From a virus, in IMG/VR virus record IMGVR_UViG_3300044691_000412, positions 1 to 26,839 of that record: a stretch of 26,839 nt of DNA. The stretch is one strand, 5' to 3'. Shown here in pieces: positions 1-19,220 of this stretch. How positions within the stretch are numbered: position 1 is the first letter of the stretch; every line of letters begins with the position of its first letter. The translations under genes and the position numbers were made by a program. Below the pieces are notes generated by a model that was not told the origin of the DNA, ran no database searches, and saw only the letters and a list, made by a program, of their open reading frames with translations.

Positions 1-3000
1 CATGCTGCACTTAAAATGGATGATAATTTTACGAACTTACTTCGTGAACTTAGAATGTATCCCGGTGATAAGGATTATGCCGCTACAAAAGATAGTATTG
101 ATAGATCAATAACCAAGCAAGTTCAAGGTACACCGGTAACCGAGGCTCAAGGTGTTGATTTTTATCAGAGATCAATTCAATCACTAGCATTAGATGTACA
201 TAACAAGGATGATTTACATCATTTGGAGGTCATAGGTGGAGCCGCCTTAAAATTAGGTAGCCTGTTACAAGCAGGACATGTTATACCTGAAGGCAAAGAT
301 TCTCTGAATTCACAAGCGCCGGCGCTCGGTGAATTAATCAAGATGTATTTGAAGGGTGATTATTCAGACGCGAATGTAAAAAAGATAACAGATGCTTTAT
401 ACGCCAACATGGATACGGCTAGGGTTTTACCATCAAATTGGAGAACGCAGGCTCAATTAATGCAGGGTGGTAACATAGATAACCTTGCCCCTGAAACTAT
501 GATGCGTATTGAATCTTCAAATTACTTGTCCGGGTTACAAGGAAGAGGTGGGTTTGATTTTAAACAATTAATGACCCATTTACTTGATCAAAAGGAGCCT
601 GCCGGATCCGCTAGTGCCGAGAATTTTCTTTCTTTATTAAAAATTGCTAAACCGCAGCGTACTGATCATTTACAACTAAAAGCATTTGACAGTATGAAGG
701 ATCAAAAAATTGATCCTGGCGCTATTCTATTAGACCGTGGCATTGACATTACGAAGGGTCAAATTGATCCTAAGATCCTACAAGGCAATCCGGTTGATAA
801 CGTAATTATTAAGATTGCTGAAGCTTATCAAAAGTTTGAAAAAAATCTCCTGGCAACCGAATCTGATCCTGTGAAACGCGATCAAGCCAGAATTCGTCAC
901 ATGCAAGAGGATTATAAGGCTCTTGGTGCTGGCGGCGAGGCTATGGTTCATTCAGCTTATGATCCTGATGTATTGGATGAGATCAAACGGCGTCGTGAAC
1001 AAATTGATGAAAAACAAGATAGAGGTATGGATAAGGCCGCAGATGTTTTGTATGGAACACCTTATAAGCATTTTGAAGAAATGGTTGCACGCTTAAGTGA
1101 ATTAGGAACTACCTTGGCTACAGGAGCGCTAGGTCCTTTAGATGTTGCGGTTAGAGGAGCAACAGAAGCATTTACGGCTTTAAATGCATTCCTTAAAGAA
1201 CATAAAACAACTGGAGAAGTGATCGGAGCAGGCCTGGCTGGCTTAGTTGTATGGCAAATAACTAGTACAATTATTGGATTGCTTGCTAAATCGGCTCCAG
1301 CTAGAGCTTTAGGTACAGCAGGACTGGCTGCTGCTGAATTTCTTTCACCAGAGCTAGCTGTTTTGGCAGCAACCTCATCTGCTGCTAGTGCTGGACTTGT
1401 GGCCATAGGCACCGCTGCTTTAGCGGTAGTTGCGTTTTTCTCAAGTATTGCTTTCTTTGGAGGAAAGAGTGCCGGAACTGAGATTGGAAGAGCTGGAGAA
1501 TTAGGTTACCAAGTTAATAAAATGGAAGAATCAGGAGCTCACGCCTATGATTACAAAAAGGATGGTAAAATCTATCCAGCTTTGCAGGTTCAAGAAGAAA
1601 TTAAAAAAGCGGATGACGCCGCTAAAGCACAAAATGATGCTGGTAAAACTCAAAAGGATGCAGCACAAACACAATTAGAAGCCGCTAAGGCTCAAACAAA
1701 AGCGGCTCAAGATCTTGTAGATAAATTGAATGAGTCAAAGAAACCAGACTCTATTCCTACTATGACAATTCATCCAGGTGGTGTACCTACTGATAGATCT
1801 GGTACCCCAGGCGGTCCAAAGACAGCGCCAGAACCGGGAGAAAGATTGGGTTATTTGACGCCCAAAGGATTACCACAATTAGCCTCTAATGATCCTAACT
1901 TCATGCCTTCTATAGAACCTTCACAAGGAGAAAAGAATTATACTGTTTCTCCTCTATCCGGAACTGGGTCTATACCACCAAATAAAGAATTAATGCCGGC
2001 AAATACAGGCGCAGTTCCATCAGAACCAAGTTCTACAGATGAAAAGAATTATACTGTATCTCCTGCTGTTTCTGGAACTGGATCTATTCCACCACCAAAA
2101 CAGAGTCAAAATGAAGCTGATTTTGACACTATGAATGCTGCCAAAGAAGCCGCCAATTCCATTGCTCTTGAATCTTCAGGACCGGGGTCAACTATTGCTC
2201 ATCCTCTGAGAGGAATAATACACGGACTCCATAAATCACCCGGCGGTATGCCCCCGGGCACTCCAGGAATTCCTGGAACGCATGATCTGAATCATGATGG
2301 TAGTAAGATGTATAGCCCACGTGGTCCAGGAAGCCTACCATCTGAAAATTCTCATTATCATCCAAGGAATTCAATGATTTCTGGTCATGGTTCTGTTCCT
2401 GGATCATCTAGTGGAGGTGATTTAGCTGGCAAACCGCCTGCTGATTGGCAATTATCTGATGCCAAAAAATTAATGAAAATGGGGATGAGTGCCCAAGATG
2501 CTGCTGGCACCATAGCAAACATCACTGCAGAATCAGCCGGCAATTCTAATGCTAGTGGTGATAGTGGTAAGGCCTTTGGTCTAGGCCAATGGCATCCTAA
2601 TCGTCAGGCTGATTTCAAGAGACTTTATGGCAAGGACATCAAAGATTCAACGCATGAAGAACAATTAAGATTCTATTATGATGAAATGAAATTACGGCAT
2701 CAAATACCTGATGGGAAAACGGCTGCTGATAGTGCTCGAAGTATCATGCAACATTATGAAGTACCAAAAGACCGAGATGTTGGTGGTAAAAATGATAGAA
2801 CACGTCGCAGTATTGCCGAAGGTATTTTTAAAGGATTAGATGGTTCTTCATCAGACATAGCCTTAAGTAGATGGGGTTCTGGTAATGATCCTGAACATCA
2901 CGGCGGTATCTCACCACATTTGGCCGGTGCTGGATCTGCATTTGCATCCGAACCATCAATTCCTCTGCAAGGATTGCCGATAGATACCGAACATCATGGT

Positions 3001-3726
3001 GGTATTTCAACTGGTGCTACTATTGAATCCGCTCAAAAGAAAGAGGCTTGGCATAGTGTAGCAGAAGGAATGAGACAAAAACGTGAGATGATTGCCTCAC
3101 AAAAGAAAGATTCATGGCATAGTATAGCTCAGGAAATAAGAGGAAAATACCCAGGATTGGTAGATCCAGAACATCATGGCGGTATTTCAACTGGTGCTAC
3201 TATTGAATCTTCTCAAAAGAAAGAAGCTTGGCATAATCTAGCCAATAATTTAAGGGCAACAGATCTTCATGATCTAGAACATCATAGCGGTATTTCAACT
3301 GGTGCTACTATTGAGTCTGCTCAGAAAAAAGAGGCTTGGCATAGTGTAGCAGAAGGAATGAGACAAAAACGTGAGATGATTGCCTCACAAAAGAGAGAGG
3401 CTTGGCATAGTGTGGCCATGTATGGTAAACATCAGCAGTTAGTAGATTTGGAACACCATGGTGGTATTTCACCTAGAGTTCCAAGTCCAAATGACATTGG
3501 TGATCCCAATACTCCCTCCTATGATAGATACGGTTATACTAAATCAAATAATCAACCAGAAATCAACAATTCTCATGAGCACCATCATTATCTCGACGGT
3601 GAGGCGATCTCTGGATCAGTTGTCGAATCCATAGTAAGAAATACCAACACGGCGAACCGAGGGGTGTCTGGATTTGATGGACGTATGACGGCAACTCAGC
3701 CAGGTTCAACGGTATCGAGAGGATAA
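1..3726 (+). CDS. Tail tape-measure protein with internal tail-lysozyme domain (5' partial)
   Basis: The protein would set tail length inside the tube and carry a peptidoglycan-cutting domain into the envelope. The frame is open from base 1; the ATG at 16 has no ribosome binding site before it, so the gene probably starts upstream. Numbering from that ATG: helical, charged N-terminal half; hydrophobic stretches at about 402-424 and 449-482, common in tape measures; Ala/Gln/Lys-rich coiled coil at about 531-575; Pro/Gly-rich linker at about 575-805; lysozyme-like domain at about 810-943 with NITAESAG (candidate catalytic E839) and FGLGQWHPNR, as in phage tail lysozymes. Residues about 957-1155 carry five EHH[G/S]GIS repeats. 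The C-terminus (SHEHHHYLDG, then a serine/glycine-rich end) resembles other tape measures. Size, hydrophobic segments and position before U- and X-like genes support the call; the lytic activity is inferred. Confidence 0.85.
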   Translation, partial: HAALKMDDNFTNLLRELRMYPGDKDYAATKDSIDRSITKQVQGTPVTEAQGVDFYQRSIQSLALDVHNKDDLHHLEVIGGAALKLGSLLQAGHVIPEGKDSLNSQAPALGELIKMYLKGDYSDANVKKITDALYANMDTARVLPSNWRTQAQLMQGGNIDNLAPETMMRIESSNYLSGLQGRGGFDFKQLMTHLLDQKEPAGSASAENFLSLLKIAKPQRTDHLQLKAFDSMKDQKIDPGAILLDRGIDITKGQIDPKILQGNPVDNVIIKIAEAYQKFEKNLLATESDPVKRDQARIRHMQEDYKALGAGGEAMVHSAYDPDVLDEIKRRREQIDEKQDRGMDKAADVLYGTPYKHFEEMVARLSELGTTLATGALGPLDVAVRGATEAFTALNAFLKEHKTTGEVIGAGLAGLVVWQITSTIIGLLAKSAPARALGTAGLAAAEFLSPELAVLAATSSAASAGLVAIGTAALAVVAFFSSIAFFGGKSAGTEIGRAGELGYQVNKMEESGAHAYDYKKDGKIYPALQVQEEIKKADDAAKAQNDAGKTQKDAAQTQLEAAKAQTKAAQDLVDKLNESKKPDSIPTMTIHPGGVPTDRSGTPGGPKTAPEPGERLGYLTPKGLPQLASNDPNFMPSIEPSQGEKNYTVSPLSGTGSIPPNKELMPANTGAVPSEPSSTDEKNYTVSPAVSGTGSIPPPKQSQNEADFDTMNAAKEAANSIALESSGPGSTIAHPLRGIIHGLHKSPGGMPPGTPGIPGTHDLNHDGSKMYSPRGPGSLPSENSHYHPRNSMISGHGSVPGSSSGGDLAGKPPADWQLSDAKKLMKMGMSAQDAAGTIANITAESAGNSNASGDSGKAFGLGQWHPNRQADFKRLYGKDIKDSTHEEQLRFYYDEMKLRHQIPDGKTAADSARSIMQHYEVPKDRDVGGKNDRTRRSIAEGIFKGLDGSSSDIALSRWGSGNDPEHHGGISPHLAGAGSAFASEPSIPLQGLPIDTEHHGGISTGATIESAQKKEAWHSVAEGMRQKREMIASQKKDSWHSIAQEIRGKYPGLVDPEHHGGISTGATIESSQKKEAWHNLANNLRATDLHDLEHHSGISTGATIESAQKKEAWHSVAEGMRQKREMIASQKREAWHSVAMYGKHQQLVDLEHHGGISPRVPSPNDIGDPNTPSYDRYGYTKSNNQPEINNSHEHHHYLDGEAISGSVVESIVRNTNTANRGVSGFDGRMTATQPGSTVSRG
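2885..3480 (+). repeat. EHH[G/S]GIS / KKEAWHS repeat array inside the tape-measure gene
   Basis: Five copies of D-x-EHH[G/S]GIS (around 2891, 2987, 3167, 3276 and 3449) alternate with helical blocks containing QKKEAWHSVA. Three copies extend to GISTGATIES. At DNA level about 65 bases beginning near 3040 recur identically, 288 bases later, near 3328, so part of the array was duplicated recently. Confidence 0.85.
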
Positions 3727-3732
3727 TAGCAC

Positions 3733-4311
3733 ATGGCTCAACCAGGTATTACGTTAGGTGGGTTTGTATTTTCAAATAGGAATTCGGCTGGAGGACTTTC
3801 AGGTGGTAATCCTGAACAAGTAAAATTTGGGCTCAAGGAACAAATTGTCATCCATAAGATGGTTGGCGGCGCCCGAATTTTAGACATGTTGGGGGATGAT
3901 CCTGAAGACATTTCATGGAATGGTTTCTTTTTAGGCCCTGATGCTCCTGATTTAGCAAACGCACTTTATGCTCTTGAACAAGGAAAAGAATTATTAGATC
4001 TTACTTTTGGCGTCTATTCAGCCACGGTAGTCATTTCCCAACTAGATTTGGTTTACAAAAAAGCCTTTTGGATTGATTATAGTATCGTCTGCGTCGTGAT
4101 TGACCAGGCAGCAGGAGGCGGCGGTGTTGGTGCAGGTGTTGGGGCCAATGACATCGGAGACCCTAATGTTGGAAATGCAGGAATCGCAAATGCTAATACT
4201 CAATTGGCTAATGTCAACACGCCGAACGATGCTTTGAATGGTCTAAATACTGGTTTAGGTGGTTTGCAGGCTGGAACCGGTGCTCCTTTTGGTGGAATAA
4301 CATTTGCGTAA
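3733..4311 (+). CDS. P2 gpU-like tail protein
   Basis: A 192-residue protein starting at ATG with an AGAGGAT ribosome binding site overlapping the end of the tape-measure gene. The first ~125 residues form a compact beta-rich domain: GGFVFSNRN, then ARILDMLGDDPEDISWNGFF, then DLANALYALEQGKELLDLTFG. This pattern (a short FVF strand, a D/P-containing turn, an I-x-W-x-G strand) resembles the P2 gpU and Mu gp43-type tail proteins that sit beside the tape measure in gene order. The last ~65 residues are a low-complexity Gly/Asn/Ala tail with the motif NDIGDPN, which also appears near the end of the tape-measure protein. The role, at the end of the tail tube or in the hub, is inferred mainly from position and weak motif likeness. 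Confidence 0.6.
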   Translation: MAQPGITLGGFVFSNRNSAGGLSGGNPEQVKFGLKEQIVIHKMVGGARILDMLGDDPEDISWNGFFLGPDAPDLANALYALEQGKELLDLTFGVYSATVVISQLDLVYKKAFWIDYSIVCVVIDQAAGGGGVGAGVGANDIGDPNVGNAGIANANTQLANVNTPNDALNGLNTGLGGLQAGTGAPFGGITFA

Positions 4312-4327
4312 CGTTATTCCACCAAAA
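4287..4327. repeat. Perfect 15-bp inverted repeat spanning a stop codon
   Basis: TTTTGGTGGAATAAC at 4287-4301 is exactly complementary to 4313-4327, with an 11-base loop that contains the TAA stop of the U-like gene. It would form a strong RNA hairpin. No T-run follows on either strand, so it is not a standard intrinsic terminator. It could slow decay of the upstream mRNA or separate expression of the two neighbours; both are guesses. Confidence 0.8.
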
Positions 4328-4470: not shown

Positions 4471-7400
4471 ATGGCGGAAAAAAATACAAAAATAGTTTCA
4501 GGCGCTGAATCACTTTATCGTGTTGCTATAGATCAATACAATGATCCACTGGATTTCATTGCGATCCTGCAAACTAATGATCTTGAATCACCTTTTATAA
4601 CGCAACCACAGAGTGTGATCCTTCCTCCAAATCCAACCAATAAAGGTGGTGTTCCTCTCCAACCAACCGGTAAAGGTACTGGTATCCAGCCTATGATCAC
4701 TACGTTTCCTTATACAATGGGAACTTTTGAAGGTGTAACTATCAGTAATTTTGCCGGCGGTGAAATTTATTCTCTTACAACTAATCGTGGCAAAATTGTA
4801 ACTTCGGTCGATGGCTCAACGGTATTAATTGGATCAGTGGATCAGTTAACCGATAAGCAAAATAACAAATGGACGATCAGTGATTTTAGGACCATTTCGG
4901 TTCCAGCCACCGTAAACACCGCTGCAACAACCGTTGAAGTAGGATTGGTTACCGTAAATGGAATAGTTGATAGGACTTCTAAGGATGTGGTTCAGATCGC
5001 CTATGTTAATGGTCTAACTTATTATCAAGATAATTTAGGATTATGGTATTCAAAAGCCCTGCCAACAGATGCATGGTCAAAAGGATTGTTTGATTCACCG
5101 CTTTTAACGGCATTCTTACCCGTTGTAACTGTTGCACAATCGGTACTGCCAGGACCTGTTCAACCTTTTGTTGGCAATACCACTCCGACAACTGCTACTA
5201 TTTTCTGGACGGCACCGGTTGGGACACAGCCGATTTATTATCAGGTTCAGTATCGATTATCTGGATCTTCTCTATGGCTTAACATTGGCAGTCAATCAAC
5301 GGCGACTAATTTAGACATCACTGGCTTGACTCCTAATAGTCTATATGATGTGCAGGTGCTTGATCTAAATGGACAAGGTATTGGCCCTTCTACACCAATT
5401 ACTCTCTCGTTCCAAACTGCTTTCGGCGCAAATCTACCAGGTCCAGTTACGCCCATGATTGCAAACATCGGACCTACCAGTATTGTCCTTAGTTGGATCA
5501 CGCCAACGGGGACAGCACCATTTAGTTATGAAATCCTGTATCGCGTCAGCGGAACACAGGTATGGATTACTACTGCGAATGTTACGGCATTAGCAGAAGG
5601 AATAGCTAATCTTCTTCCTAATACAAGTTATGATTTTGAAATTATAGCAACAAATTCTGTTGGCTCATCTACGAGCACCCCCATCTCTTCAGCCACAACA
5701 CTTTCACTTCCAGTTAGTTCGGTTGGCATTCCGTTAATCACCAACATCGCTCAAACGACCTTGACGATTGGTTGGTCTATTCCAAGTGGAACTCCTCCGT
5801 TCACCTATCAAATACAGAATCGAGTAACCGGCACTATTCCTTGGTCTTTGGTAGCCGGAACATCGGCGACCACATTTAATGTATCAAACTTGCTTTCAAA
5901 TACAAATTATGATTTTCGAGTTATTCCAAGTGATGCGACAACAGCATCTTCCGTTGTTCCAGACATTGTATCAATAACGACAGTAACAACGATTGCACCA
6001 CCTCCACCAATTGGAGCTGTATTGGCTGCTTCGGCTATTTCTCGTGCCACAGCAACGCCAGTATTAACGACAGTTCTTCAAACATCTGTAGAATCACTTC
6101 AAGGAACGACTGTTACAACTATTGGTCCGCAACTTGTTGATGCATTCCTTGAAACCTTTAGTATTTCTAGTACTGGATTTATCGTTCAGAATGGAGTTCC
6201 GGATACGACTTCCTCTGCAAATGTTGTGCTGCTATTATACTGGAATCATCTTGTGTATCAAGAAAATAGTTCTGGAAATTGGTATTTCAAATCAAGGATT
6301 TCTGATACCTATGTTGGGCCAGTGACGGATCCACGGCCTCCTGCGATTGTAGAGTCAGCACAAAATACATTGGTTACAACTGTTGGTCCTGCATTATTTG
6401 ATTCAGTATTAGAGGCCTTTACAATTACCAGTGGTGGTCAAATTGCAGTCAACGGCATTACGGATGCTACTACCAGTAGGGTTGTATTGCTATTGTATTG
6501 GAATCATCTTGTTTACCAGGAAAATCTTAGCAATGATTGGTATTTTAAATCAGTTGCCTCTGATACTTGGAGTGCACCGACAACTGATCCTCGTAACATT
6601 GGTCGCAATTATCTGTTAGGCCTTCGTGACGGTAATCCAACTGATACTACAACCGCAACCTTGATGGGCCAAGCATGGGATTACACTATTAATTTCAGTT
6701 ACGAAGATCCTTGGGCCGGTGCCAGTATCAGTGGATTAGCAGTGTCTGATCGACCTGGAACACCAGTTATTGCGGCTGTATACCATCTCGATAATGGTAG
6801 CCCTCCCTACATGGATGCGACCGTTGCAGCGAATGGCGGGTACAATGCCTTCTATACTCAAACAGCTCAATCGTTGATTCCATACGCCAACATCATCTAT
6901 GGTATCCGTATCGATCATGAATTTAACGGTACTTGGGAACCATTTGGTCCGTTTGGTGGGGCGGGTCAGCTTATAGATGCTGCAACCTGGATCGCAGGAT
7001 GGCGCCACATGGCACAAGCTATCCGCACAGCATTGCCAAATGTTAAGATTATCTGGAATCCAAACATTGGACAGAATAACCCGTATCCCTATTATCCTGG
7101 AGATGACTTAGTGGATGTCGTAGGGTTTGATGCCTATACTCAACCGGCCTTTTCAGGAGGCTTAACGTCGATGCAGATGTGGCAAGAATACTTGAATGGT
7201 CAAGGAGGTAATAACTTTACTACCTTGGCTGCATTTGGTGTTGCTCATAACAAGCCACTTTGTTTCCCCGAATGGGGCGACGGTTTCGGTGATGGTGTTT
7301 TCATCACGCAATTCGGTGCATGGATGGACCAACATAATGTTGTTGCTCATAGCTATTGGGACTCAGCCGATGGTCTTACCAACACCACGGCTCTCACGCA

Positions 7401-8292
7401 ATTGCCAGCGAATCAAACAGCATTTGTAAATGCCTTCGGCCATCGTCCTTACACTGGTACTTTCTGGCCAGAAAGGAATCCTTCAATTCAGGCGCCAGCA
7501 CAAGCCGTTTCTGCTGGGTTTACTGTACTTACAGGAGGGGCAGAATTTAATAATTCATCCGATGTTACCAATGACATCAGTGGTGGCAATACCACTGCGG
7601 CACTTTACAATTGGGATGGAGGTTCACAGGCCATGTCAACGAGTGGCTGGTCCATTGCCAATAGCATTCTTACAATTACTGCGGCCACCAATCATGGACA
7701 AGGTCTTGAGACATTATGCAATTCAAATGCACCAATTTCAATAGGCCCAGTTAGTACTCATGGTCGCCAGACTAATGTTGGAACCGGTATGTTATACCGT
7801 TATTTCTACGCTGAAGCCAGTATGCGCTTCAACTGGCAAGCTGGTCCTGGACCAACTTTTTGGACCTGGGCTTACAATAATGGTGGTGCGCCAAATACAT
7901 TAGAACTAGACGTCGTCGAAATAGGAACGGATAGCAACATCTATTCCTTTTGGCATGGTCATGGTGCAAGTGGCGATGATGGCCCTAATACTGGTGGCAA
8001 TGCGTCGCTTAACGGAAATCTAACCGGTTGGTCCGTACCTAATCAGCAATTGAATAAAACTTCTCCAGCACAGTTCAACAAATACGGCTTGTTATGGACT
8101 CCAACGAAAGTTGAATGGTATTACAACGATGTTCTAATTCAGAATTTTGCTACCAATACGCCTATCCCTTGGTCGGACGGGTCAAATGAGACGGCCAATA
8201 CTATCGATAACATGGGAAGTATGGCACTGGCCTTTATCTTTGGAACTTGGAGCGATCAAATGGACATTGACTACTTACGGGTTTGGCAATAA
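4471..8292 (+). CDS. LysM/gpX-like baseplate protein fused to Fn3 domains, GH26-like and GH16-like glycosidases
   Basis: A 1273-residue virion protein that probably anchors polysaccharide-cutting enzymes to the baseplate. Residues 1-~52 look like the short P2 gpX/LysM fold (GAESLYRVAIDQYNDP, then QSVILPPNP). A small module with NG, YxQ and WYxK occurs at about 95-206 and twice more at about 540-623 and 628-708. Three Fn3 domains lie at about 227-319, 323-411 and 417-506. Residues ~710-994 resemble GH26: RIDHEFNG (candidate acid/base E817) and CFPEWG (candidate nucleophile E934), 117 residues apart. Residues ~1020-1273 resemble GH16: ELDVVE (E1145, D1147, E1150), the family's E-x-D-x-x-E signature, and an end DIDYLRVWQ. 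The gene sits between U- and D-like genes, where a small LysM protein is expected. Substrate unknown; exopolysaccharide or capsule is the inference. The glycosidase part looks more GC-rich than the next gene. Confidence 0.8.
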   Translation: MAEKNTKIVSGAESLYRVAIDQYNDPLDFIAILQTNDLESPFITQPQSVILPPNPTNKGGVPLQPTGKGTGIQPMITTFPYTMGTFEGVTISNFAGGEIYSLTTNRGKIVTSVDGSTVLIGSVDQLTDKQNNKWTISDFRTISVPATVNTAATTVEVGLVTVNGIVDRTSKDVVQIAYVNGLTYYQDNLGLWYSKALPTDAWSKGLFDSPLLTAFLPVVTVAQSVLPGPVQPFVGNTTPTTATIFWTAPVGTQPIYYQVQYRLSGSSLWLNIGSQSTATNLDITGLTPNSLYDVQVLDLNGQGIGPSTPITLSFQTAFGANLPGPVTPMIANIGPTSIVLSWITPTGTAPFSYEILYRVSGTQVWITTANVTALAEGIANLLPNTSYDFEIIATNSVGSSTSTPISSATTLSLPVSSVGIPLITNIAQTTLTIGWSIPSGTPPFTYQIQNRVTGTIPWSLVAGTSATTFNVSNLLSNTNYDFRVIPSDATTASSVVPDIVSITTVTTIAPPPPIGAVLAASAISRATATPVLTTVLQTSVESLQGTTVTTIGPQLVDAFLETFSISSTGFIVQNGVPDTTSSANVVLLLYWNHLVYQENSSGNWYFKSRISDTYVGPVTDPRPPAIVESAQNTLVTTVGPALFDSVLEAFTITSGGQIAVNGITDATTSRVVLLLYWNHLVYQENLSNDWYFKSVASDTWSAPTTDPRNIGRNYLLGLRDGNPTDTTTATLMGQAWDYTINFSYEDPWAGASISGLAVSDRPGTPVIAAVYHLDNGSPPYMDATVAANGGYNAFYTQTAQSLIPYANIIYGIRIDHEFNGTWEPFGPFGGAGQLIDAATWIAGWRHMAQAIRTALPNVKIIWNPNIGQNNPYPYYPGDDLVDVVGFDAYTQPAFSGGLTSMQMWQEYLNGQGGNNFTTLAAFGVAHNKPLCFPEWGDGFGDGVFITQFGAWMDQHNVVAHSYWDSADGLTNTTALTQLPANQTAFVNAFGHRPYTGTFWPERNPSIQAPAQAVSAGFTVLTGGAEFNNSSDVTNDISGGNTTAALYNWDGGSQAMSTSGWSIANSILTITAATNHGQGLETLCNSNAPISIGPVSTHGRQTNVGTGMLYRYFYAEASMRFNWQAGPGPTFWTWAYNNGGAPNTLELDVVEIGTDSNIYSFWHGHGASGDDGPNTGGNASLNGNLTGWSVPNQQLNKTSPAQFNKYGLLWTPTKVEWYYNDVLIQNFATNTPIPWSDGSNETANTIDNMGSMALAFIFGTWSDQMDIDYLRVWQ

Positions 8293-8309: not shown

Positions 8310-9464
8310 ATGCCTGGAGTACAAAATGTTGCGGCAGTAGGCACCAATACTAATAGGTTAGTGGGTTTACGAATCACTACTGGTGGTGACATGTTCCCAA
8401 CTCCTTTAAAAGCTGTTGTGAAACATAATAGATGGTTTCAAGCCAATACTTTTGAAGCTGTAATTGGTCTTTATGGTTCACCGTATGACTTAGAATGGTG
8501 GGGATCTATGGATAGAGTTACTGATTTTCCAATGGAAATTGAATTTGGAGTTGGTGATCCTGCTAACGGTTTTGATGGAATGACATGGCAACAGATGATG
8601 GCAGGCGTAGTTGATAAAATTGTCGTTGATACAACGAAAGGAACCGTTACCTGTCATGGACGTGATAATGTGAGTCTTTTGATTGACAAATACACTTTGA
8701 ATGCATTTCCTGATTGGACAGTTAAACAAATTTGTGATAAATTGATTTCGGATGTCGGTCTTGTTCCTGATGTTGAGGGTGGAGATACTGGAGCATTTGC
8801 CAGTGAACTTTATCGAAGAGATGCGAAATCAATAACTTCTGGTGGTCAATTTAATCATCTTATGAGTTATTGGGACATAATTTGTCTTCTTGCTTTACGA
8901 GCAAATTGTTTTGTTTACCTTGATCTTGATACACTCCATGTTAGACCAGACGATTTTGATCCAGGTATTTGGGAAGTTACAATGGATCCTCCCGATGATA
9001 AACCTCCAGTTGTGATTCTTAATCCAAGTAATACCACAAAGATTGTTTTCGAACGTGACTTAAACATAGCAAGAAATACATCGGTTATTGTTAGATCCTG
9101 GGATGCTCAAGGAAAAGGTGCATACATTGGAACTGATAAACAATCTAAAGATAAGGGTTTAAAATCACATACTATTCAACACATTCAAGCCGGCATTCAA
9201 AGTAATGAAGATGCAGATAATCGAGCCGAAGTTATCTATAATGAAGCCATTAGACATGAAAAGAAAATTCATTGGTCTGAACCAGGTGATCTTCTTTTGA
9301 CAGTATTACAACGAGTTAGTGTAGTACCTTCTGGAGCAACAGAATGGAATCAATTGTATTATTTAGAATCTATTGATCGAACAATGGATTGGAAAACAGG
9401 ATTTACAATGAAATGTATTGGAACTAATGCCGATCCTCTTTTGGCAAGTATTTTAGATTTTTAA
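8310..9464 (+). CDS. P2 gpD-like baseplate hub protein
   Basis: A 384-residue protein with ATG at 8310 preceded by AAAGGA; the ATG four bases earlier is in another frame and leads nowhere. It lies directly upstream of the spike gene, the usual place of the D/gp44/gp27-like hub that links tube and spike. Features typical of this family include an early strand-rich domain with GTVTCHGRDNVSLL, then WTVKQICDKLISDVGL, a central YWDIICLLALRANCFVYLD segment, and a later strand region (IVFERDLNIARNTSVIVRSW) ending in the repeated-strand part before GFTMKCIG. The assignment rests on order, size and general pattern; no catalytic role is expected. Confidence 0.75.
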   Translation: MPGVQNVAAVGTNTNRLVGLRITTGGDMFPTPLKAVVKHNRWFQANTFEAVIGLYGSPYDLEWWGSMDRVTDFPMEIEFGVGDPANGFDGMTWQQMMAGVVDKIVVDTTKGTVTCHGRDNVSLLIDKYTLNAFPDWTVKQICDKLISDVGLVPDVEGGDTGAFASELYRRDAKSITSGGQFNHLMSYWDIICLLALRANCFVYLDLDTLHVRPDDFDPGIWEVTMDPPDDKPPVVILNPSNTTKIVFERDLNIARNTSVIVRSWDAQGKGAYIGTDKQSKDKGLKSHTIQHIQAGIQSNEDADNRAEVIYNEAIRHEKKIHWSEPGDLLLTVLQRVSVVPSGATEWNQLYYLESIDRTMDWKTGFTMKCIGTNADPLLASILDF

Positions 9465-9475
9465 AAGGTAAAATT

Positions 9476-10216
9476 GTGACACATTATTATGATTCTCTAA
9501 AAAACATTATGACGCGTGAATCTGCTAAACAAGATCACCAAAGTGCTCAGCCGCGTTATGGAAGAGTCACAGACTATGATCCGGATTTAAATTTAGTTAA
9601 ATGCGCCATTCTTCCCGAAACAACTGAAGAAGATGATGACATTTTAACTGGTTGGTTACAAATTGTTACTCCTATGGTAGGCCCTGGTTGGGGTATAGTT
9701 TGTCCAATTGAAGTAGATGATCAAGTGATTTTACTTCCTGTATGGAATGGTGGATCTGAATACGTTGTTTTAGGTGGAACTTTTAATGATGAAGATCTTG
9801 TCGCTCAAGGCCCTAATGACATAGGTGCCGAAGATTCAACCACTCAAATTGGTGAATACCTAATCAGAAGTAAAACTGATTTCACAATGAAATTTGTGGA
9901 TCCTAATACTCTTATGATTAAGGGTGATTTTGAAAAACATGAAGTTCTTCACATTATTACAAAAGGAACAGATGTAGACATCACTGCTTCTGATTTTGTT
10001 CATGTTACTTGTGATACTGCTGTTGTAAATGCTTCGACATCGGTAACAGTCAATTCACCAGATACGATTATCAACGGACATCTTCAAGTCAATGGATCCA
10101 TAAATGCAACTGGTGATGTTACTGATAGATTAACTTCAATGGAAAACATAAGAGAGATCTTTGACATTCATATCCACGATGACAGTCCCGTGCCCATACC
10201 TCAAATGCCCAAATGA
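9476..10216 (+). CDS. P2 gpV-like baseplate spike protein
   Basis: A 246-residue protein that starts at GTG, 7 bases after AAAAGG. Residues ~25-110 form the OB-like domain typical of gpV/gp45 spikes: RYGRVTDYDPDLNLVKCAIL, then GWGIVCPIEVDDQVILLPVWNG and YVVLGGTFND. The C-terminal half is a run of short beta strands (DVDITASDFVHVTCDTAVV, VTVNSPDTIINGHLQVNGS), as expected of a trimeric beta-helix needle. It ends with IHIHDDSPVPIPQ; an HxH at the tip binds iron in known P2-type spikes, so the same is likely here. It would pierce the outer membrane during contraction. Its last 16 bases overlap the 3' end of the oppositely directed HNH gene. Confidence 0.85.
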   Translation: MTHYYDSLKNIMTRESAKQDHQSAQPRYGRVTDYDPDLNLVKCAILPETTEEDDDILTGWLQIVTPMVGPGWGIVCPIEVDDQVILLPVWNGGSEYVVLGGTFNDEDLVAQGPNDIGAEDSTTQIGEYLIRSKTDFTMKFVDPNTLMIKGDFEKHEVLHIITKGTDVDITASDFVHVTCDTAVVNASTSVTVNSPDTIINGHLQVNGSINATGDVTDRLTSMENIREIFDIHIHDDSPVPIPQMPK

Positions 10217-10812
10217 TCTGGAATAGGTCTAATTATAAGTTTACTAGGATGAAATTTACCGGTTACATTAGACCAACATTTTCCAGTTTTGATGTCTCTG
10301 ACAGTGGTTCCGTTTATGTTGAATTGTTTAGCGATGGTACTAATTTTATCAGGAGCATTGAAAATTGATAATGCTTTTTCTTTTGTTAATTTCGCATAAG
10401 GAGCTATTAACCATTTTTGACTCCCCAGCCTACGTTTATTCGCGGCATCATCCATGTTAGATTTTGGAGAAGCTTGAAATAAATGATTAGGATTAACACA
10501 GGAAGGAACATCACAAGAATGACAGATAAATTTACCATCAATTAATGGTCCATTAAAAGCACGATAACTGATACGATGAGCTGGATGAAATTTGCCATTC
10601 TCCCATAAATGTCCATAATTAAATTTAATGTTTCTTGATTCACTTGCTAAAATTTTAAAGATCCAACATTTGGACGGATCTGAATAATCGATAACATAAC
10701 TTTTAATTTTACATTGATCAGAACAAGTTCTTTGTTGCCCAAATTTAGGAATGAATACATTGTTACAAATTATACAATTTATAGGTTTATACTGTTGAGA
10801 ACCGAAGGCCAT
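10201..10812 (-). CDS. HNH homing endonuclease, free-standing
   Basis: The only clear gene on the minus strand, 203 residues. The N-terminus has a zinc-finger-like cysteine set (C13, C16, C30, C34). Residues ~79-128 form an HNH domain: HRISYRAFNG, ICHSCDVPSCVNPNHL and a following SNMDD, with H79, H98, H110 and N119 as candidate metal and catalytic residues. Residues ~141-186 look like a helix-turn-helix DNA-binding part (STIAKQFNINGTTVRDIK). CAGGAGT 7 bases before the ATG is a good ribosome binding site. It sits between the spike gene and a small unknown gene, overlapping the spike stop by 16 bases. Free-standing HNH genes inserted between phage genes usually cut the same site in related phages lacking them and so spread; that role is inferred. 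Confidence 0.85.
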   Translation of the reverse strand: MAFGSQQYKPINCIICNNVFIPKFGQQRTCSDQCKIKSYVIDYSDPSKCWIFKILASESRNIKFNYGHLWENGKFHPAHRISYRAFNGPLIDGKFICHSCDVPSCVNPNHLFQASPKSNMDDAANKRRLGSQKWLIAPYAKLTKEKALSIFNAPDKISTIAKQFNINGTTVRDIKTGKCWSNVTGKFHPSKLIIRPIPDHLGI

Positions 10813-10878: not shown

Positions 10879-11214
10879 ATGACAAATTCATTAACATTAG
10901 ATACTCAGAAATTAATAGCTGAATTTGAAGCAACGCTTTTGCCTATTGATACAACTTTATTGTTCAATAATTTAAATACATTGAATGATTCAAGTATTCA
11001 AATACTTTCTGAACAGCTTTGCACTCAACTTAAAATTTTAGATTTCACTCAAATTGCCGTTCATAGTATTCATGGTATTATGACAGATCTTGAAAAACTT
11101 ACCTATACAGGCCCAAATGGTTATGGCAAAGGACCAATTTGGTTAAAATTTAGAAATCAGGTTGTCATTCATGCTTCTATGGGATTAATACCCACAGGAA
11201 TAGTTTTAAAATAA
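10879..11214 (+). CDS. Small baseplate-cluster protein of unknown function
   Basis: A 111-residue protein I do not recognise. It starts at ATG after AATAGGAT, which resembles the binding site used before the gene at 4471. The N-terminal ~75 residues look helical (TQKLIAEFEATLLPIDTTLL, LSEQLCTQLKILD). The C-terminal ~35 residues have a Gly-rich turn (GPNGYGKGP) and a hydrophobic strand region. No signal peptide, membrane segment or catalytic motif is visible, and it lacks the short pattern of a PAAR tip protein. It lies between spike and W-like wedge genes and in the same frame as the latter, so a minor baseplate or assembly role is likely but unproven. Confidence 0.6.
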   Translation: MTNSLTLDTQKLIAEFEATLLPIDTTLLFNNLNTLNDSSIQILSEQLCTQLKILDFTQIAVHSIHGIMTDLEKLTYTGPNGYGKGPIWLKFRNQVVIHASMGLIPTGIVLK

Positions 11215-11220
11215 ATAAAG

Positions 11221-11225
11221 AGGAG
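11221..11225 (+). promoter_or_regulatory. Strong ribosome binding site (AGGAG) for an ATT-start gene
   Basis: AGGAG lies 7 bases before ATT at 11233, an ideal spacing. It is what selects 11233 among three consecutive in-frame ATT codons (11227, 11230, 11233), since no ATG, GTG or TTG is available. Confidence 0.65.
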
Positions 11226-11232
11226 AATTATT

Positions 11233-11607
11233 ATTTCAGAATTAGCTCATGTCGCAGGATCAGCGCTTCAATTTTCACCAACAGGCGGAATTTTATTATC
11301 TTCAGGTCCAAAACAAGGACAAGAAAAGATAATTCGCCGATTATTAACCAACACAGATGACCTCTTATCAGATCTTAACTATGGTGCATCAATTCCTAGG
11401 CTCATAGGATCTCCAGGAGTATTAGATTTAATCACAGCAGTTATCCGAAAACAATTAAAATTAGAACCAATTGTTCAACAAAATCCATCTCCTAGAATCG
11501 GAGTATTTGAAGATCCAGGAACTGGATTATTCATAGCAACAATTCAATACATCGATAATCTAACCTTAGAACAAAATCAAATAAAACTTCCATTAGGAAC
11601 GAAATGA
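11233..11607 (+). CDS. Baseplate wedge protein, P2 gpW / T4 gp25-like, with probable ATT start
   Basis: A 124-residue protein that ORF rules limited to ATG/GTG/TTG would miss. Read from ATT at 11233 it begins SELAHVAGSALQFSPTGG and contains the family's core: KIIRRLLTNTDDLLSDLNYG, followed by IPRLIGSPGVLDLITAVIRK and an ending of strands with IATIQYIDNLTLEQ. This is the normal length and pattern of W/gp25 wedge proteins, which nucleate the baseplate wedge with the J-like protein. Its stop overlaps the ATG of the J-like gene (ATGA), the usual W-J coupling. The frame is open back to the TAA at 11212, with no conventional start codon, so a true AUU start or a lost ATG are the two explanations. 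The product call is firm; the start is inferred. Confidence 0.8.
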   Translation: MSELAHVAGSALQFSPTGGILLSSGPKQGQEKIIRRLLTNTDDLLSDLNYGASIPRLIGSPGVLDLITAVIRKQLKLEPIVQQNPSPRIGVFEDPGTGLFIATIQYIDNLTLEQNQIKLPLGTK

Positions 11608-12800
11608 GCGCGACAATACCTCTTAATACTTCTCCATTTGTTTCAAATCTTCAACTTTCAAGTTATGATGATTTGATTAAAAGATCTGTATCAGTAGCAC
11701 AGTCTGTGTGCCCTGATCTAACAGATTTTTCTTCTGGTAGTCCTTCGCTGGCTCTTATGTCGGTGAAAGCATACTCGGATCTCTGGCTACAATGGTTGGT
11801 CTATAACACGTTCTTAAATTCAAGATTTTTTACAACTACTGGTGGTGGAGTAGATACTTGGGCAAATGACTTCGGATTTTCTCGATCTGGAGCAACCTAT
11901 GCTAACGGTTTTGTAACATTTACAAGATTCTCGGCAACCAATCAATTAGTAATACCAGTAGGCGTTATCTGTCAAACAGGAGATGGCACACAAAAATTTA
12001 TTACATTACCTGACATAGATAATGTTTATTTTGACATCACAACCCAGAGATACCTTGTTCCTCCTGGTCAATTATCAGTTTCAATCCTAGTCCAAGCCGT
12101 AAATCCAGGAATCGGGGGCAATGTTGTTCCTGGTGCAATTTCTCTTATGTATAGTTCTGTTACTGGTGTCAATAAAGTTAATAATCCATTAGCAATGGCT
12201 GGTGGCGTAGACGGAGAAGGTGATTCATCTTTTAAGTCAAGATTTGTGCCTTATTTTAATAGTCGTAGTTCTGGTACTTCATCTGCCATTGTAAATGCTA
12301 TTCTTTCTATAGGATCAAATCTCACTTATCAGGTTCTTGAAAACGCAAATGGTACCAAATTAGATCCATTGAATAATAACGTCACTATACCAAATACTCA
12401 ATTTGGTTTCTTTACTGTTTACATAGATTCTGGATCTCAGTCAATCACATCTGCAGATACTGTCCTTCAGGTTCAAAATGCAATAAATTTAGTAAGGCCA
12501 TTATCAGTTGATTTTTGGGTAACTACACCGACACTTGTTCCAATTGACATTGAATACCTTGTCAATTATCAGCCTGGTTATAATGTTGCCAATGTACGTG
12601 CAATCATTAATTCTAAAATCACCAATTATGTGAATACAATTCAACCTGGCGCGCATCTCAATTATTATACCTTAGCATCACTCATAAATGATACTCTTGG
12701 ATGTAAGAATGTTCAATTCCTTATTGTTGCTGGAGTTGAGAGTAATGTGGGCGTCGCCCCTGGTAGTATTATAAAACTTGGTAATTTGGCAGGAGTATAA
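11604..12800 (+). CDS. Baseplate wedge protein J (P2 gpJ-like)
   Basis: A 398-residue protein whose ATG overlaps the W-like stop by the ATGA arrangement. It has the Baseplate_J pattern: an N-terminal helical part (YDDLIKRSVSVAQSVCPDLT, then GSPSLALMSVKAYSDLWLQW), a domain with ANDFGFSRSGATYANGFVTF and VIPVGVICQTGDG, then GGVDGEGDSSFKSRFVPYFN where many J proteins have a G.D.E....R motif, and a C-terminal strand/helix domain with SVDFWVTTPTLVPIDIEYLV. With the W- and I-like proteins it forms the wedge ring around the spike. Confidence 0.9.
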   Translation: MSATIPLNTSPFVSNLQLSSYDDLIKRSVSVAQSVCPDLTDFSSGSPSLALMSVKAYSDLWLQWLVYNTFLNSRFFTTTGGGVDTWANDFGFSRSGATYANGFVTFTRFSATNQLVIPVGVICQTGDGTQKFITLPDIDNVYFDITTQRYLVPPGQLSVSILVQAVNPGIGGNVVPGAISLMYSSVTGVNKVNNPLAMAGGVDGEGDSSFKSRFVPYFNSRSSGTSSAIVNAILSIGSNLTYQVLENANGTKLDPLNNNVTIPNTQFGFFTVYIDSGSQSITSADTVLQVQNAINLVRPLSVDFWVTTPTLVPIDIEYLVNYQPGYNVANVRAIINSKITNYVNTIQPGAHLNYYTLASLINDTLGCKNVQFLIVAGVESNVGVAPGSIIKLGNLAGV

Positions 12801-12805
12801 TTCCA

Positions 12806-14002
12806 ATGACTCTTGTTATAACAACTCCACCAATAATTCCCGAATTATTTCCTCCAGTAGCCACTGATTCATTTTATAATGAGCCTCCAGATCGTAATTT
12901 ATTAGCTCTTTTAACATTTCCTGATCCACCTTATCTAGTAACTAATCCATCTAATACAATTAATAATGTCGGTAATTTAAGATCTCTTTTGCCACAGACT
13001 TGGTTTCCAGATGATGATCAGATCCTCGATGCCATTTTAGCAACATTCGCAGAATCTCTTGCTACAATACAGGCCAGAAATGATTGGATTTATCAACAAG
13101 ATCGAATAAAAACTGCAAACGGAATTTGGCTAGACATGTTCGCCGAGGAATTTTTCGGTGCTGGAGGAAATCCTCAAGGAAACATTTCATCAGGAGACCT
13201 TACACTTGGTGGTTGGATGTATCGTCGTCCAAATGAATTTGACGCTGCTTATAGATCAAGAATTCTTTTTGAATTAATGGCTCAAAGGATCACACGCAAG
13301 GGTCTTTATGACATGTTAACTTTTTGGTGTGGGGGGTTTACTCCTACTATTATTGAACCATGGAATCCAAATGATACTGGTTGTTGGGATGGAGTCGGAG
13401 GAATTGCCTATTATGATAGAGCTGGTTATTGGGGATCAAATGATGATCCTTGGACTACTTTTATTATTACTCAACGCAATGGTGGTATTCCGGTCCAACA
13501 ATTCAATGATGAGACACCAGCACAATTTTTAACCCATACTCCTGGTATAATTGGAACTAATCTTGTTACCAATACCAATTATTTGTATGGAGGTTATGAT
13601 TCAGGATTATTATTTTACATTGATGGTCCTATTAATGAATCACAGGTATCTGATCTTGAACTTTACGGAGTTATTAATCGAACAATTCCTGAAGGAACAA
13701 AGGCATTTGTCCATCTTAATGATTCACAACAATTACCTAATGATCCACTTACTAGAGTATTGGAACTTTTTAATTATAATTTCATACTTGATACTTCCGA
13801 ATTAGCCAGTGACACAGTTGCAATTAGTTTCATTAATCAACCTCTGGGTTATGTTAATAGTTACATGGACCTGAATCTAATTTTAGATGAATCATTAATC
13901 GCATTAGAACCAGGTGCGTCTTCTGAGAGTCAACCAATACCTGATCCATTGCCTGGCTTTGCCGATGTTAGCTTTATTTCTAATGTAAGCGCCGCGCTAT
14001 GA
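12806..14002 (+). CDS. Baseplate protein I-like (fibre-proximal wedge)
   Basis: A 398-residue protein starting at ATG with GGAG overlapping the end of the J-like gene. The N-terminal half carries I/YmfQ-like features: LRSLLPQTWFPDDDQILDAI, then helices with FAESLATIQARNDWIYQQDR, and DMFAEEFFGAGGNP with YRSRILFELMAQRITRKGLY. The C-terminal half is Asn/Asp/Pro-rich and less conserved. In P2-type phages this protein caps the wedge and receives the fibres, which fits the fibre genes that follow. Its C-terminal half is longer than a typical gpI, so it may also contact the fibre. Confidence 0.75.
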   Translation: MTLVITTPPIIPELFPPVATDSFYNEPPDRNLLALLTFPDPPYLVTNPSNTINNVGNLRSLLPQTWFPDDDQILDAILATFAESLATIQARNDWIYQQDRIKTANGIWLDMFAEEFFGAGGNPQGNISSGDLTLGGWMYRRPNEFDAAYRSRILFELMAQRITRKGLYDMLTFWCGGFTPTIIEPWNPNDTGCWDGVGGIAYYDRAGYWGSNDDPWTTFIITQRNGGIPVQQFNDETPAQFLTHTPGIIGTNLVTNTNYLYGGYDSGLLFYIDGPINESQVSDLELYGVINRTIPEGTKAFVHLNDSQQLPNDPLTRVLELFNYNFILDTSELASDTVAISFINQPLGYVNSYMDLNLILDESLIALEPGASSESQPIPDPLPGFADVSFISNVSAAL

Positions 14003-16262: not shown

Positions 16263-17069
16263 GTGAGTGGATCGGGAACAGTAGGAACAGGAGGCGGTAG
16301 TTCATCAGCAACTACGACGACCACTGGTCCATTTCAACCTTTTACGGTATTGGCAGCATCTGCTCTTAATTCTGCCCTTCAGTATGGTGTGAAACTTGGA
16401 GGTACAATTGATAATACTCCGATAGGTCAAACCACACCGGCACCTGGATCATTTACTACACTTACTGCAACTACTCTTCCGGCTGGTGATAATACCACGA
16501 ATGTTGCAACGACCGCATTCGTGGCTACGGCGGTAGGTTCTGGTGGAGGAGGAGGTGGTGGAGGATCTACAACTACGGCTATTACTCAGGCTCCTGGAAA
16601 TAGTTCTACATTGATCGCAACGACGGCTTTCGTTGGTAATGCAGTCAATACAGCAGTATCAAATGATGTTGTCGGTGCTCCGTATACCGGTAGCGGCTCT
16701 AATCCAGGTTTATTCAGAGACGATGGAACCGGCGTTCCAACCACATTATCATCTTATCTTTGGTCCCCGATGAATTGGACTCCAGTAACAAATGTTTCTG
16801 TTTTGTACATTGTGCCTGTTCCTATTGTAATAGATGGGTTTCATGTAGAAGCGCCAGGAGTAACAACTGGTAATAGTTTTGCTCTCACAATTACACGTAA
16901 TGGAACCCCCATTGGTGGAACCTATACCGGAAGTGGCACAAGTACTGCTGCCATTGTAGTATCTCCGGCTGTTGCATGTGTTGCTGGTGATAGATTACTT
17001 TTTACTCCCGGCGCAATTACAGGAACGGTTACTAATGCTTATGTGCAACCGACCGGTCATCTCGGGTAA
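16263..17069 (+). CDS. Fibre-associated protein with Gly linker and beta-sandwich end
   Basis: A 268-residue protein starting at GTG after GGAGG (16251-16255). The first ~20 residues are a Gly/Ser/Thr arm. TIDNTPIGQTTPAPGSFTTL is a motif shared by many fibre proteins, and two copies of an ATTAFV-type repeat flank eight consecutive glycines at about 93-101. Residues ~160-268 look like a beta sandwich (VLYIVPVPIVIDGFHVE, LTITRNGTPIGGTYTG). It ends cleanly with GHLG just before the GIY-YIG gene, so there is no sign that it was cut by the insertion. It is probably a fibre or fibre-decorating protein; receptor unknown. Confidence 0.6.
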   Translation: MSGSGTVGTGGGSSSATTTTTGPFQPFTVLAASALNSALQYGVKLGGTIDNTPIGQTTPAPGSFTTLTATTLPAGDNTTNVATTAFVATAVGSGGGGGGGGSTTTAITQAPGNSSTLIATTAFVGNAVNTAVSNDVVGAPYTGSGSNPGLFRDDGTGVPTTLSSYLWSPMNWTPVTNVSVLYIVPVPIVIDGFHVEAPGVTTGNSFALTITRNGTPIGGTYTGSGTSTAAIVVSPAVACVAGDRLLFTPGAITGTVTNAYVQPTGHLG

Positions 17070-17082
17070 CCGAAAGACTTTT

Positions 17083-17679
17083 ATGGAAGTATTCATTTAT
17101 AAATTAATTGATCCAGTGACTAGAGAAATTCGGTATGCTGGCAAAACAATAAGTATAGAAAAGCGAATCTACTCTCATGTAAGAGATTCAAAAAAGGCCA
17201 TTACTCATACTCATAGATGGATTCAAAGTTTGATAGAAAAAAGTTTGAAACCTGCAATAGAAATTATAGAAATTACTGACGAAATAAATTGGCCTAAAAG
17301 AGAAATCTATTGGATTGCAAGATTAAAAGTAGAAGGACATAGATTAACAAATCATAATGCCGGCGGAAATGGTCTAACCCGTAGATTAATGACTTCTGAA
17401 GAAACACGGGAAAAATTAAGGAAAGCTAGATTAGGGAAAAAAGGGGTAAAAATACGCCCTGAAAATTTTGCTAAGATGGTTAAGTTGGCTGTTATAGCTA
17501 ACACAAAGCATTCACTAGAAACTAGAATTAAGGTACAGGAATTGTGCAAAAGTCATCAACCAAATGTTTCCGGTAATCATTCTGCTTCAGAAGTAGCCGC
17601 CATGATGGGCTTGACAGTTTCACAAGTACGTGGAATTAAATGTTCAAACAAAAGAATTGGTATCGTTAAATCAATTTAA
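17083..17679 (+). CDS. GIY-YIG homing endonuclease
   Basis: A 198-residue protein unlike its fibre neighbours, which are Thr/Ser/Gly-rich; this one is Lys/Arg/Ile-rich. The N-terminal ~90 residues are a GIY-YIG nuclease: FIYKLIDPVTREIRYAGKT gives the two short motifs, R28 is the conserved arginine, and E74 in WPKREIYWIARL the metal-binding glutamate. Residues ~95-120 (GGNGLT, then TSEETREKLRKARLGKK) match a NUMOD3-type DNA-binding motif, and SASEVAAMMGLTVSQVRGIK near the end is helix-turn-helix-like. The ATG at 17083 is chosen because the fold begins there; a longer reading would run into the previous gene. Free-standing insertion between two intact genes fits better than an intron. Confidence 0.88.
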   Translation: MEVFIYKLIDPVTREIRYAGKTISIEKRIYSHVRDSKKAITHTHRWIQSLIEKSLKPAIEIIEITDEINWPKREIYWIARLKVEGHRLTNHNAGGNGLTRRLMTSEETREKLRKARLGKKGVKIRPENFAKMVKLAVIANTKHSLETRIKVQELCKSHQPNVSGNHSASEVAAMMGLTVSQVRGIKCSNKRIGIVKSI

Positions 17680-17710
17680 TTTAGGGTCAATAAGAAAAAG
17701 GATTTCAGGG

Positions 17711-19216
17711 ATGCCAACAATACAAGCAAAATCGTCAGATAGTTTCGTAGAAAGTATTGGGTTTAATTCTGCCGGCTTTACTGATGGTGGAAGCATTCAA
17801 ACTGTTTTTGCAGCAATTATTTTAGATTTAGGATGCCGTTATTATAGAACCGGAATAGGTGCGGCACCTATGACGGCACTGACAAAAGGCGCGGCAATGC
17901 GTAACGGTGCAAGATTTTCAACCGGTACTGGCAATAATGTTAGTGATTTAGCTGGTTATGCTAGTGCTGTGAATAGCACACTTGCTGCCAATCCAGGGTC
18001 TATTATAATGATGGAAGGTGTCAATGAACCAGATAATGGATTTGGTGGAGGTGGACAAACCGGCGTTAATCTCGCCATTGCAGACCAAATCACCTGGATT
18101 AATGCGGCCGCCGGCTCAGCCGCTGGTAATGTACCAGTAGGTACACCACCTCTTGCGACCCCTGGAGGATCTGGATTTGGCGCAACTTGTTTCTTAACTG
18201 CAGCTCAAGGTGGAACCGCGAATCAATCCCTTTTGGGTCATTATAACATTATTACTGGACATTGGTATTATTCGGGCAATCAACCCGAAGATCCAAGCAT
18301 GTTTCCAAATTTATACAATCGATGTGTTACACCCCTTCAACAAGGTGCAGGCGCTCCATTCCCGGTATGGATCACTGAGATGGGTTCTGAATCAACAATT
18401 GATGGCCTGAACCTATCTAACTGGAGCGGTCCCGGAGCTACTTTTGCTGGAGAGGCAATTTATCTTCCTAGATTTTTTATGTATGCATTTGCTAATGGTA
18501 TAGCAAGATCATTTAAGTATCAGTTGGGACAGTTGTACGATGGTCCCAGTCACATTGATAATCTGTTTGGAATTGTTGAAGAACAATTGATGAATCCACA
18601 AGGAAATCCCGCAGGTTATACGGCTCCGGCCGTTCCAACTAGTTCTTCGCAAGCCAAACCTTGTTATTTCACAATTAAGAATCTGATTCAATTAACCACT
18701 GATCCGGCTCCGGCCGCAGGTATTGATACTTTTGTGCCTGGATCAATGACGTATACTTTGAGTGGTGCAACCTTTGCTGGTCCAACTGGTAATGGTGCAG
18801 CACCAACGGGATTTTCAAATGTTTATCATACGGTTTTAGGTAAGAGAAATGGTAATTTCATTATGTGTTTTTGGCAGTACCAAACTAACACACCTCCTAC
18901 AACTCCTGGAACTTTTGCTCCGATAACTGTGACAATTAACGCCCCAGCTTTTACCCAGTATCAAACAGCTACATTAAGCTCTACACCAACAATGAATGCT
19001 TTTGGTTCGGCTCAAAACTTAGTAGGTAATAATGCTACTGTTTCTGTAGGAGATGCAATAACATTAGTGCAATTTATTTCTAATCCTATTACTACGGTTC
19101 CTAGTCAAGTAACTGTTACATCATTACAAACTACTGCTACAACTCAAAATTTATCTTGGACTCAGGCAACTCAAAATCCTTCTGATTATACAGTTACAGT
19201 GACGGAGATCACCTAA
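17711..19216 (+). CDS. Clan GH-A glycosidase tail protein ending inside an Fn3 domain
   Basis: A 501-residue protein. ATG at 17711 is preceded by AAAAAGGA at about 8 bases; an earlier in-frame ATG lies inside the endonuclease gene and is rejected. Residues ~1-345 look like a TIM-barrel glycosidase of clan A (GH39/GH5/GH30 style): GVNEPDN gives the strand-4 N-E pair (N105, acid/base E106), and VWITEMGSE the strand-7 nucleophile (E223), 117 residues apart. Residues ~350-462 form a beta-sandwich ending GDAITLVQF, usual after such barrels. From ~463 an Fn3 domain begins (SQVTVTSLQ, then LSWTQA) but stops halfway at TAA; its second half opens the next gene in another frame. Probably digests host polysaccharide; exact family and substrate unknown. 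Confidence 0.78.
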   Translation: MPTIQAKSSDSFVESIGFNSAGFTDGGSIQTVFAAIILDLGCRYYRTGIGAAPMTALTKGAAMRNGARFSTGTGNNVSDLAGYASAVNSTLAANPGSIIMMEGVNEPDNGFGGGGQTGVNLAIADQITWINAAAGSAAGNVPVGTPPLATPGGSGFGATCFLTAAQGGTANQSLLGHYNIITGHWYYSGNQPEDPSMFPNLYNRCVTPLQQGAGAPFPVWITEMGSESTIDGLNLSNWSGPGATFAGEAIYLPRFFMYAFANGIARSFKYQLGQLYDGPSHIDNLFGIVEEQLMNPQGNPAGYTAPAVPTSSSQAKPCYFTIKNLIQLTTDPAPAAGIDTFVPGSMTYTLSGATFAGPTGNGAAPTGFSNVYHTVLGKRNGNFIMCFWQYQTNTPPTTPGTFAPITVTINAPAFTQYQTATLSSTPTMNAFGSAQNLVGNNATVSVGDAITLVQFISNPITTVPSQVTVTSLQTTATTQNLSWTQATQNPSDYTVTVTEIT

Positions 19217-19220
19217 AATG
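19204..19220 (+). promoter_or_regulatory. Stop/restart junction inside a split Fn3 domain
   Basis: GGAG at 19204-19207, TAA at 19214-19216 and ATG at 19218-19220 make a close stop-restart site (TAAAATG). The second reading frame is +1 relative to the first. No slippery heptamer for -1 shifting is visible. Confidence 0.7.

Follow-up and report, generated by a model that had tools for sequence, protein, structure and literature searches.

A baseplate-type LysM domain joined to Fn3 and predicted GH26 and GH16 domains in a contractile-tailed phage

Gene content of the locus

The window analysed here is the whole of a viral contig from a metagenome (IMG/VR record IMGVR_UViG_3300044691_000412; 26,839 nucleotides), an incomplete genome of a contractile-tailed, soil-type phage. 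Examination of its tail region revealed, next to recognisable baseplate genes, an ORF of 1273 residues (4471-8292) with no internal stop. The features considered are the following.

16-3726, + strand: tape measure protein with a tail lysozyme domain (Pfam Phage_lysozyme2, E 1e-16; PHROG tape measure, E 2e-28)
3733-4311, + strand: tube initiator / baseplate centrepiece-like protein (phrog_21362, positions 19-159 of 321, E 5e-23)
4287-4327, no strand: 18-nt inverted repeat across the initiator stop codon, opening a 159-nt non-coding gap (repeat search)
4471-8292, + strand: LysM - Fn3 - GH26 - GH16 protein, 1273 residues (ORF translation, Pfam, PHROG)
4471-4653, + strand: its LysM domain, BW4/'glue' family, residues 1-61 (relatives-only profile, predicted fold, structural matches)
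4906-5130, + strand: small repeated module, copy 1, residues about 146-220 (seven-copy alignment)
5152-5985, + strand: three Fn3 domains, residues about 228-505 (Pfam fn3 on three stretches, E 3e-24)
6139-6342, + strand: small repeated module, copy 2, residues about 557-624 (seven-copy alignment)
6397-6600, + strand: small repeated module, copy 3, residues about 643-710 (seven-copy alignment)
6601-7485, + strand: GH26 domain, residues about 711-1005 (Pfam over cut-off; match of profile to solved GH26 enzymes)
7504-8289, + strand: GH16 domain, residues 1012-1273 (Pfam; ExDxxE-type motif)
8310-9464, + strand: baseplate hub protein (remotely similar to tail proteins of phages phiKX1 and MMB025)
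9476-10216, + strand: central spike (Pfam Phage_base_V, E 1e-6)
11604-12800, + strand: baseplate J wedge protein (Pfam Baseplate_J, E 1e-30)
12806-14002, + strand: baseplate I-like wedge protein (phrog_26379, E 4e-26; alignment with ORFs that follow J in relatives)

The window shares with the Komagataeibacter phage phiKX1 the order initiator - LysM - hub - spike - small ORF - J - I. The ORF at 3733-4311 holds the same position as a 306-aa phiKX1 protein and its prophage counterparts, and is the usual tube-initiator partner of the LysM protein, while the hub ORF matches the hub-position ORFs of relatives at about 26%. In other phages, initiator and LysM are either fused into a single protein of about 320 residues or encoded by two genes that abut; of the loci fetched, 33 had them fused and 124 separate, the separate genes having a median gap of 0 nt. 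A 159-nt gap such as that of the window is missing in nearly all relatives. Its strong hairpin (fold z = -3.3) leaves some 140 nt of non-coding sequence before the LysM gene; a terminator was considered here and rejected, as the hairpin has no T-run and the terminator scan was negative.

Several other observations were made in the window. Two endonuclease genes, one HNH (10201-10812, - strand) and one GIY-YIG (16972-17679, + strand), have inserted between genes of the baseplate and tail, and a stretch of about 390 nt (11215-11603) that separates the J gene from the small ORF at 10879 contains no ORF of at least 60 residues. One Fn3 domain is split over ORFs 17630-19216 and 19218-22184, which lie in different frames; the +1 shift near ACC TAA AAT GG may be a programmed frameshift, a mutation or a sequence error. 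The former ORF reads like another TIM-barrel glycosidase (GVNEPD, ITEMG) and gave no Pfam or PDB match. Rfam and tRNA scans of the window were empty, PADLOC returned no match, and no near DNA match to the window was found in the phage collection.

Architecture of the 1273-residue protein

The order of the main domains is LysM, three Fn3, GH26 and GH16, with three small modules besides. A preliminary description made from the nucleotide sequence had proposed the Fn3, GH26-like and GH16-like domains in one continuous frame; Pfam recovers all of them, with borders within about 15 residues of those first given. The five residues named as catalytic (E817, E934, E1145, D1147 and E1150) sit where they had been placed, and two other phages, on contigs L001 and L002, have the same residue at all five positions. 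The protein is real and unusual, and is known from one metagenomic contig.

The small module has no Pfam family. It follows the pattern NG...Y.NH..YQ.N...W, adjoins the enzymes in the window protein and in both other phages (L001, 1440-1979; L002, 6019-6552), and is also present in the genomes of some bacteria from the likely host order.

The LysM domain belongs to a contractile-baseplate family

The general Pfam LysM model did not match the large ORF. Residues 3-61 are matched by the C-terminal end of phrog_21362 (E 3e-5), the N-terminal part of which matches the preceding initiator ORF. A profile built with the window left out, from phiKX1, MMB025 and 20 prophages found in the order to which a Rhodospirillales metagenome-assembled genome belongs, finds residues 13-61 with an E-value of 2e-9. 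When aligned with the short LysM proteins of relatives, the window protein has the same start methionine, and its LysM domain ends where these proteins end. The family profile also recovers solved baseplate chains of the Streptomyces contractile injection system (9gtp) and of gp16 of Anabaena phage A-1(L) (8kea), and weakly that of phi812 (9euf). The predicted fold of residues 1-58 is beta-alpha-alpha-beta (pLDDT about 90) and matches the baseplate chains 7aeb_M (Z 7.1, rmsd 1.6 over 52 residues), 8kea_J (Z 6.8) and 7b5h (Z 6.7); these structural Z- and E-values are not high, which is usual for a domain of 55 residues, and ordinary LysM domains reach similar scores.

Taken together, these matches support membership of the window LysM in the BW4/'glue' family of contractile baseplates. 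The preliminary description had called it a gpX/LysM-type domain in the P2 manner. The baseplate LysM stands; the P2 gpX identity was replaced by the BW4/gp53/PA0627 type, whose gene adjoins the tube initiator. In phage Milano the BW4 'glue' LysM sits between hub and wedge, and its orthologues include T4 gp53 and PA0627 (PMC10811340); the same LysM domain is placed between hub and wedge in Mu (PMC11915804). Six monomers of the LysM protein gp16 fill the hub-wedge gap of A-1(L), where they are encircled by wedge and initiator proteins and their C-terminal tail points to the hub or the initiator (PMC10966104). As members of this family occupy the space between the wedges and the central hub, the location of the window protein in the 'hub region', as first suggested, is a fair one; gene order and LysM family both favour it, and the protein would probably be placed there.

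How far the window protein departs from its relatives was surveyed in 20 prophages and phiKX1, in 80 IMG/VR loci chosen by LysM and in 63 loci chosen by nearness to the window J protein, three contigs being common to the two IMG/VR selections. In about 160 of 160 relatives the LysM protein ends at most 5 residues after the domain, whereas 1212 residues follow it in the window, in agreement with the rarity first ascribed to this domain order. Identity to the best J matches is 31-36%, and the alignment-based J search found no close relative of the window phage; single-sequence searches with hub and J had found no relatives, and alignment-based ones did. Ending at the LysM domain is usual in the sampled relatives and not a defining trait of the wider family, from which phi812 departs.

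The GH26 and GH16 domains

Pfam Glyco_hydro_26 matches residues 813-894 with 24.3 bits against a cut-off of 20.2. A GH26 profile extended to three phage proteins and six bacterial relatives retrieved solved beta-mannanases and a lichenase (E about 2.6e-15 to 5e-14). In sequence alignment, E817 (codon 6919-6921, within HExNGxW) and E934 (codon 7270-7272) coincide with the catalytic glutamates of GH26 enzymes of known structure (2bv9 and others), as the preliminary description had proposed, and both are invariant in the nine proteins. Residues about 711-1005 can on these sequence comparisons be assigned firmly to family GH26, with predicted enzyme activity.

The evidence for GH16 is moderate. 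Pfam Glyco_hydro_16 matches residues 1107-1229 of the full protein with 26.7 bits against a cut-off of 22, and the domain alone gives E-values of 2e-7 to 2e-8 in the three phage members (1.8e-7 in the window). The stretch ELDVVE at 1145-1150 (nt 7903-7920) aligns with EIDIME of 5nbo, so that E1145, D1147 and E1150, also named beforehand, fit the GH16 motif ExDxxE; all three are invariant in the three phages. Similarity to solved laminarinase-type enzymes is weak (best E 0.05), and a GH26-GH16 model predicted from only three sequences reached a pLDDT of 30. Neither enzyme domain had a PHROG match, and a search of 200 genomes from the probable host order, weak as it had no positive control, returned no relative of the GH16 domain.

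Both domains might have lost activity and now serve as polysaccharide-binding adhesins. A serine replaces the histidine before the GH26 acid/base in L002, so the surroundings of the active site are not fully conserved; all five catalytic residues are nevertheless invariant across about 23% amino-acid divergence among the three phages, which makes conversion to adhesins unlikely.

An enzyme cassette common to other phages

The same GH26-GH16 pair with small modules occurs on L001 and L002, two IMG/VR contigs of one metagenome (3300044691), in proteins of 819 residues that are 64-66% identical to the window protein overall and 76-78% over the enzymes. The likeness is limited to the cassette and the small modules: the 819-residue proteins have no LysM or Fn3 domain and a different N-terminus, and are encoded by a separate gene with different neighbours, beside terminase and portal, whereas the window protein carries LysM and Fn3 and occupies a baseplate gene slot. 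At the nucleotide level the genes are 71-72% identical over 1698 bp, a stretch that begins with GH26 and extends to the stop codon. Amino-acid identity over the enzymes exceeds this value, as expected under purifying selection on the cassette. GC3 is 0.39-0.40 in the GH26/GH16 part and 0.20-0.32 in the remaining window. Since the pair forms a separate gene in two unrelated phages and has a higher GC3, it appears to have been acquired horizontally as one cassette.

The deviating GC3 and the single contig would also fit an assembly chimera in which a short LysM gene and an enzyme gene from a different phage were joined, a misassembly that the preliminary description had itself named. Against this, the frame is unbroken, the small module is found both N-terminally and adjoining GH26 within the one protein, and the genes flanking the insert, initiator and hub, belong to a single baseplate type and stand in canonical order, with 17 nt between the large gene and the hub gene. 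With such flanks a chimera would need two exact joins, one in frame and the other 17 nt before the hub; misassembly is unlikely, and we consider it very improbable.

Comparison with known systems

The window protein resembles T4 gp53, R-pyocin PA0627, A-1(L) gp16 and the LysM of Milano gp25 and Mu gp43 in LysM fold, family and gene position, and differs in its long extension with two predicted glycosidases. An addition at the C-terminus of LysM is structurally possible, for the phi812 wedge subunit (PDB 9eui, 9euf; compare phrog_975) likewise has an N-terminal LysM followed by more protein; that subunit has 234 residues in total and no enzyme domain was identified in it here.

Enzymes had been described beforehand as normally sitting on fibres or tailspikes. 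This holds as a rule, with a precedent for hydrolases at the baseplate centre in the A-1(L) hub protein gp15, the endoglucanase and peptidase domains of which were tested (PMC10966104). The A-1(L) enzymes lie within the hub itself and are proposed to act on the wall after penetration of the outer membrane, whereas those of the window are carried by the LysM protein. Depolymerases of tailspikes and tail fibres, usually homotrimeric beta-helices (PMC11652154), presumably serve the same purpose, degrading capsule or exopolysaccharide at the tip of the tail; the window domains fall to GH26 and GH16 by family models, outside the trimeric beta-helix class, and stand in series on one chain. A phage GH26 gene is also known from GX15bay, whose 'mannanase' (MK557849; 28% identity over 141 residues) stands alone in a glycosyltransferase region with no tail part. 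No other example of two predicted glycosidases on a LysM baseplate protein was found here, and no paper naming such a protein was found in a search short of most subscription journals.

Proposed function

We favour, at a probability of about two in three, a polysaccharide depolymerase that would be anchored in the baseplate by its LysM domain and carry its cassette-derived enzymes on a flexible arm. In this proposal a BW4/LysM 'glue' protein would have been extended by an arm of small modules and three Fn3 domains. Its LysM domain would insert into the hub-wedge gap where the short protein normally sits, incorporating the whole chain into the baseplate in up to six copies per virion and probably six, as in solved relatives. 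The arm would extend outward between the wedges, and GH26 and GH16 could cut two linkages of a surface or matrix polysaccharide near the tail tip, letting the baseplate reach the outer membrane; slime would then be cut from the middle of the tail tip and not from the fibres. We infer virion incorporation, copy number, arm exit path, activity and substrate alike. The exit of the arm is the weakest step: since the LysM of A-1(L) is enclosed by wedge and initiator proteins, an arm of 1212 residues requires a path out.

The same protein could instead be a free depolymerase, its LysM domain binding sugar, that is released at lysis and opens the matrix for the progeny. LysM domains generally bind GlcNAc polymers, Fn3 and GH modules are typical of secreted bacterial enzymes, the gap with its hairpin could decouple expression of the gene, and the enzyme gene of L001 and L002 lies away from recognised tail genes. 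The window LysM, however, is of a baseplate-specific family and stands in the slot of that gene. Something must also serve as BW4, and the relatives-only profile found no second LysM among the ORFs of the 26.8-kb contig, although a short LysM gene may lie elsewhere in the genome, which is incomplete here. A free enzyme is on this evidence rather unlikely. As the glue protein ties the hub to the wedges, which re-orient on firing, the anchored enzymes might also be exposed or released as the baseplate opens, coupling matrix digestion to contraction; such gating is a doubtful addition.

Relatives of the window baseplate are common among the prophages of a single Alphaproteobacterial order, where 78 of 200 sampled genomes had them, and also occur in Komagataeibacter phages. 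A GH26 protein 29% identical to the phage domain is encoded in a Rhodospirillales metagenome-assembled genome, in a cluster of polysaccharide export and glycosyltransferase genes. These hosts and this cluster make a Rhodospirillales-type host with a beta-linked exopolysaccharide plausible. The same biosynthesis cluster holds a second GH26 gene.

If the anchored reading is true, enzymes can be attached to a structural linker in the core of the contractile baseplate, which would add a third enzyme site to fibres or spikes and the hub itself. It would bear on how phages of short reach penetrate thick exopolysaccharide, and the anchor protein concerned is one that pyocins and extracellular injection systems share with phages.
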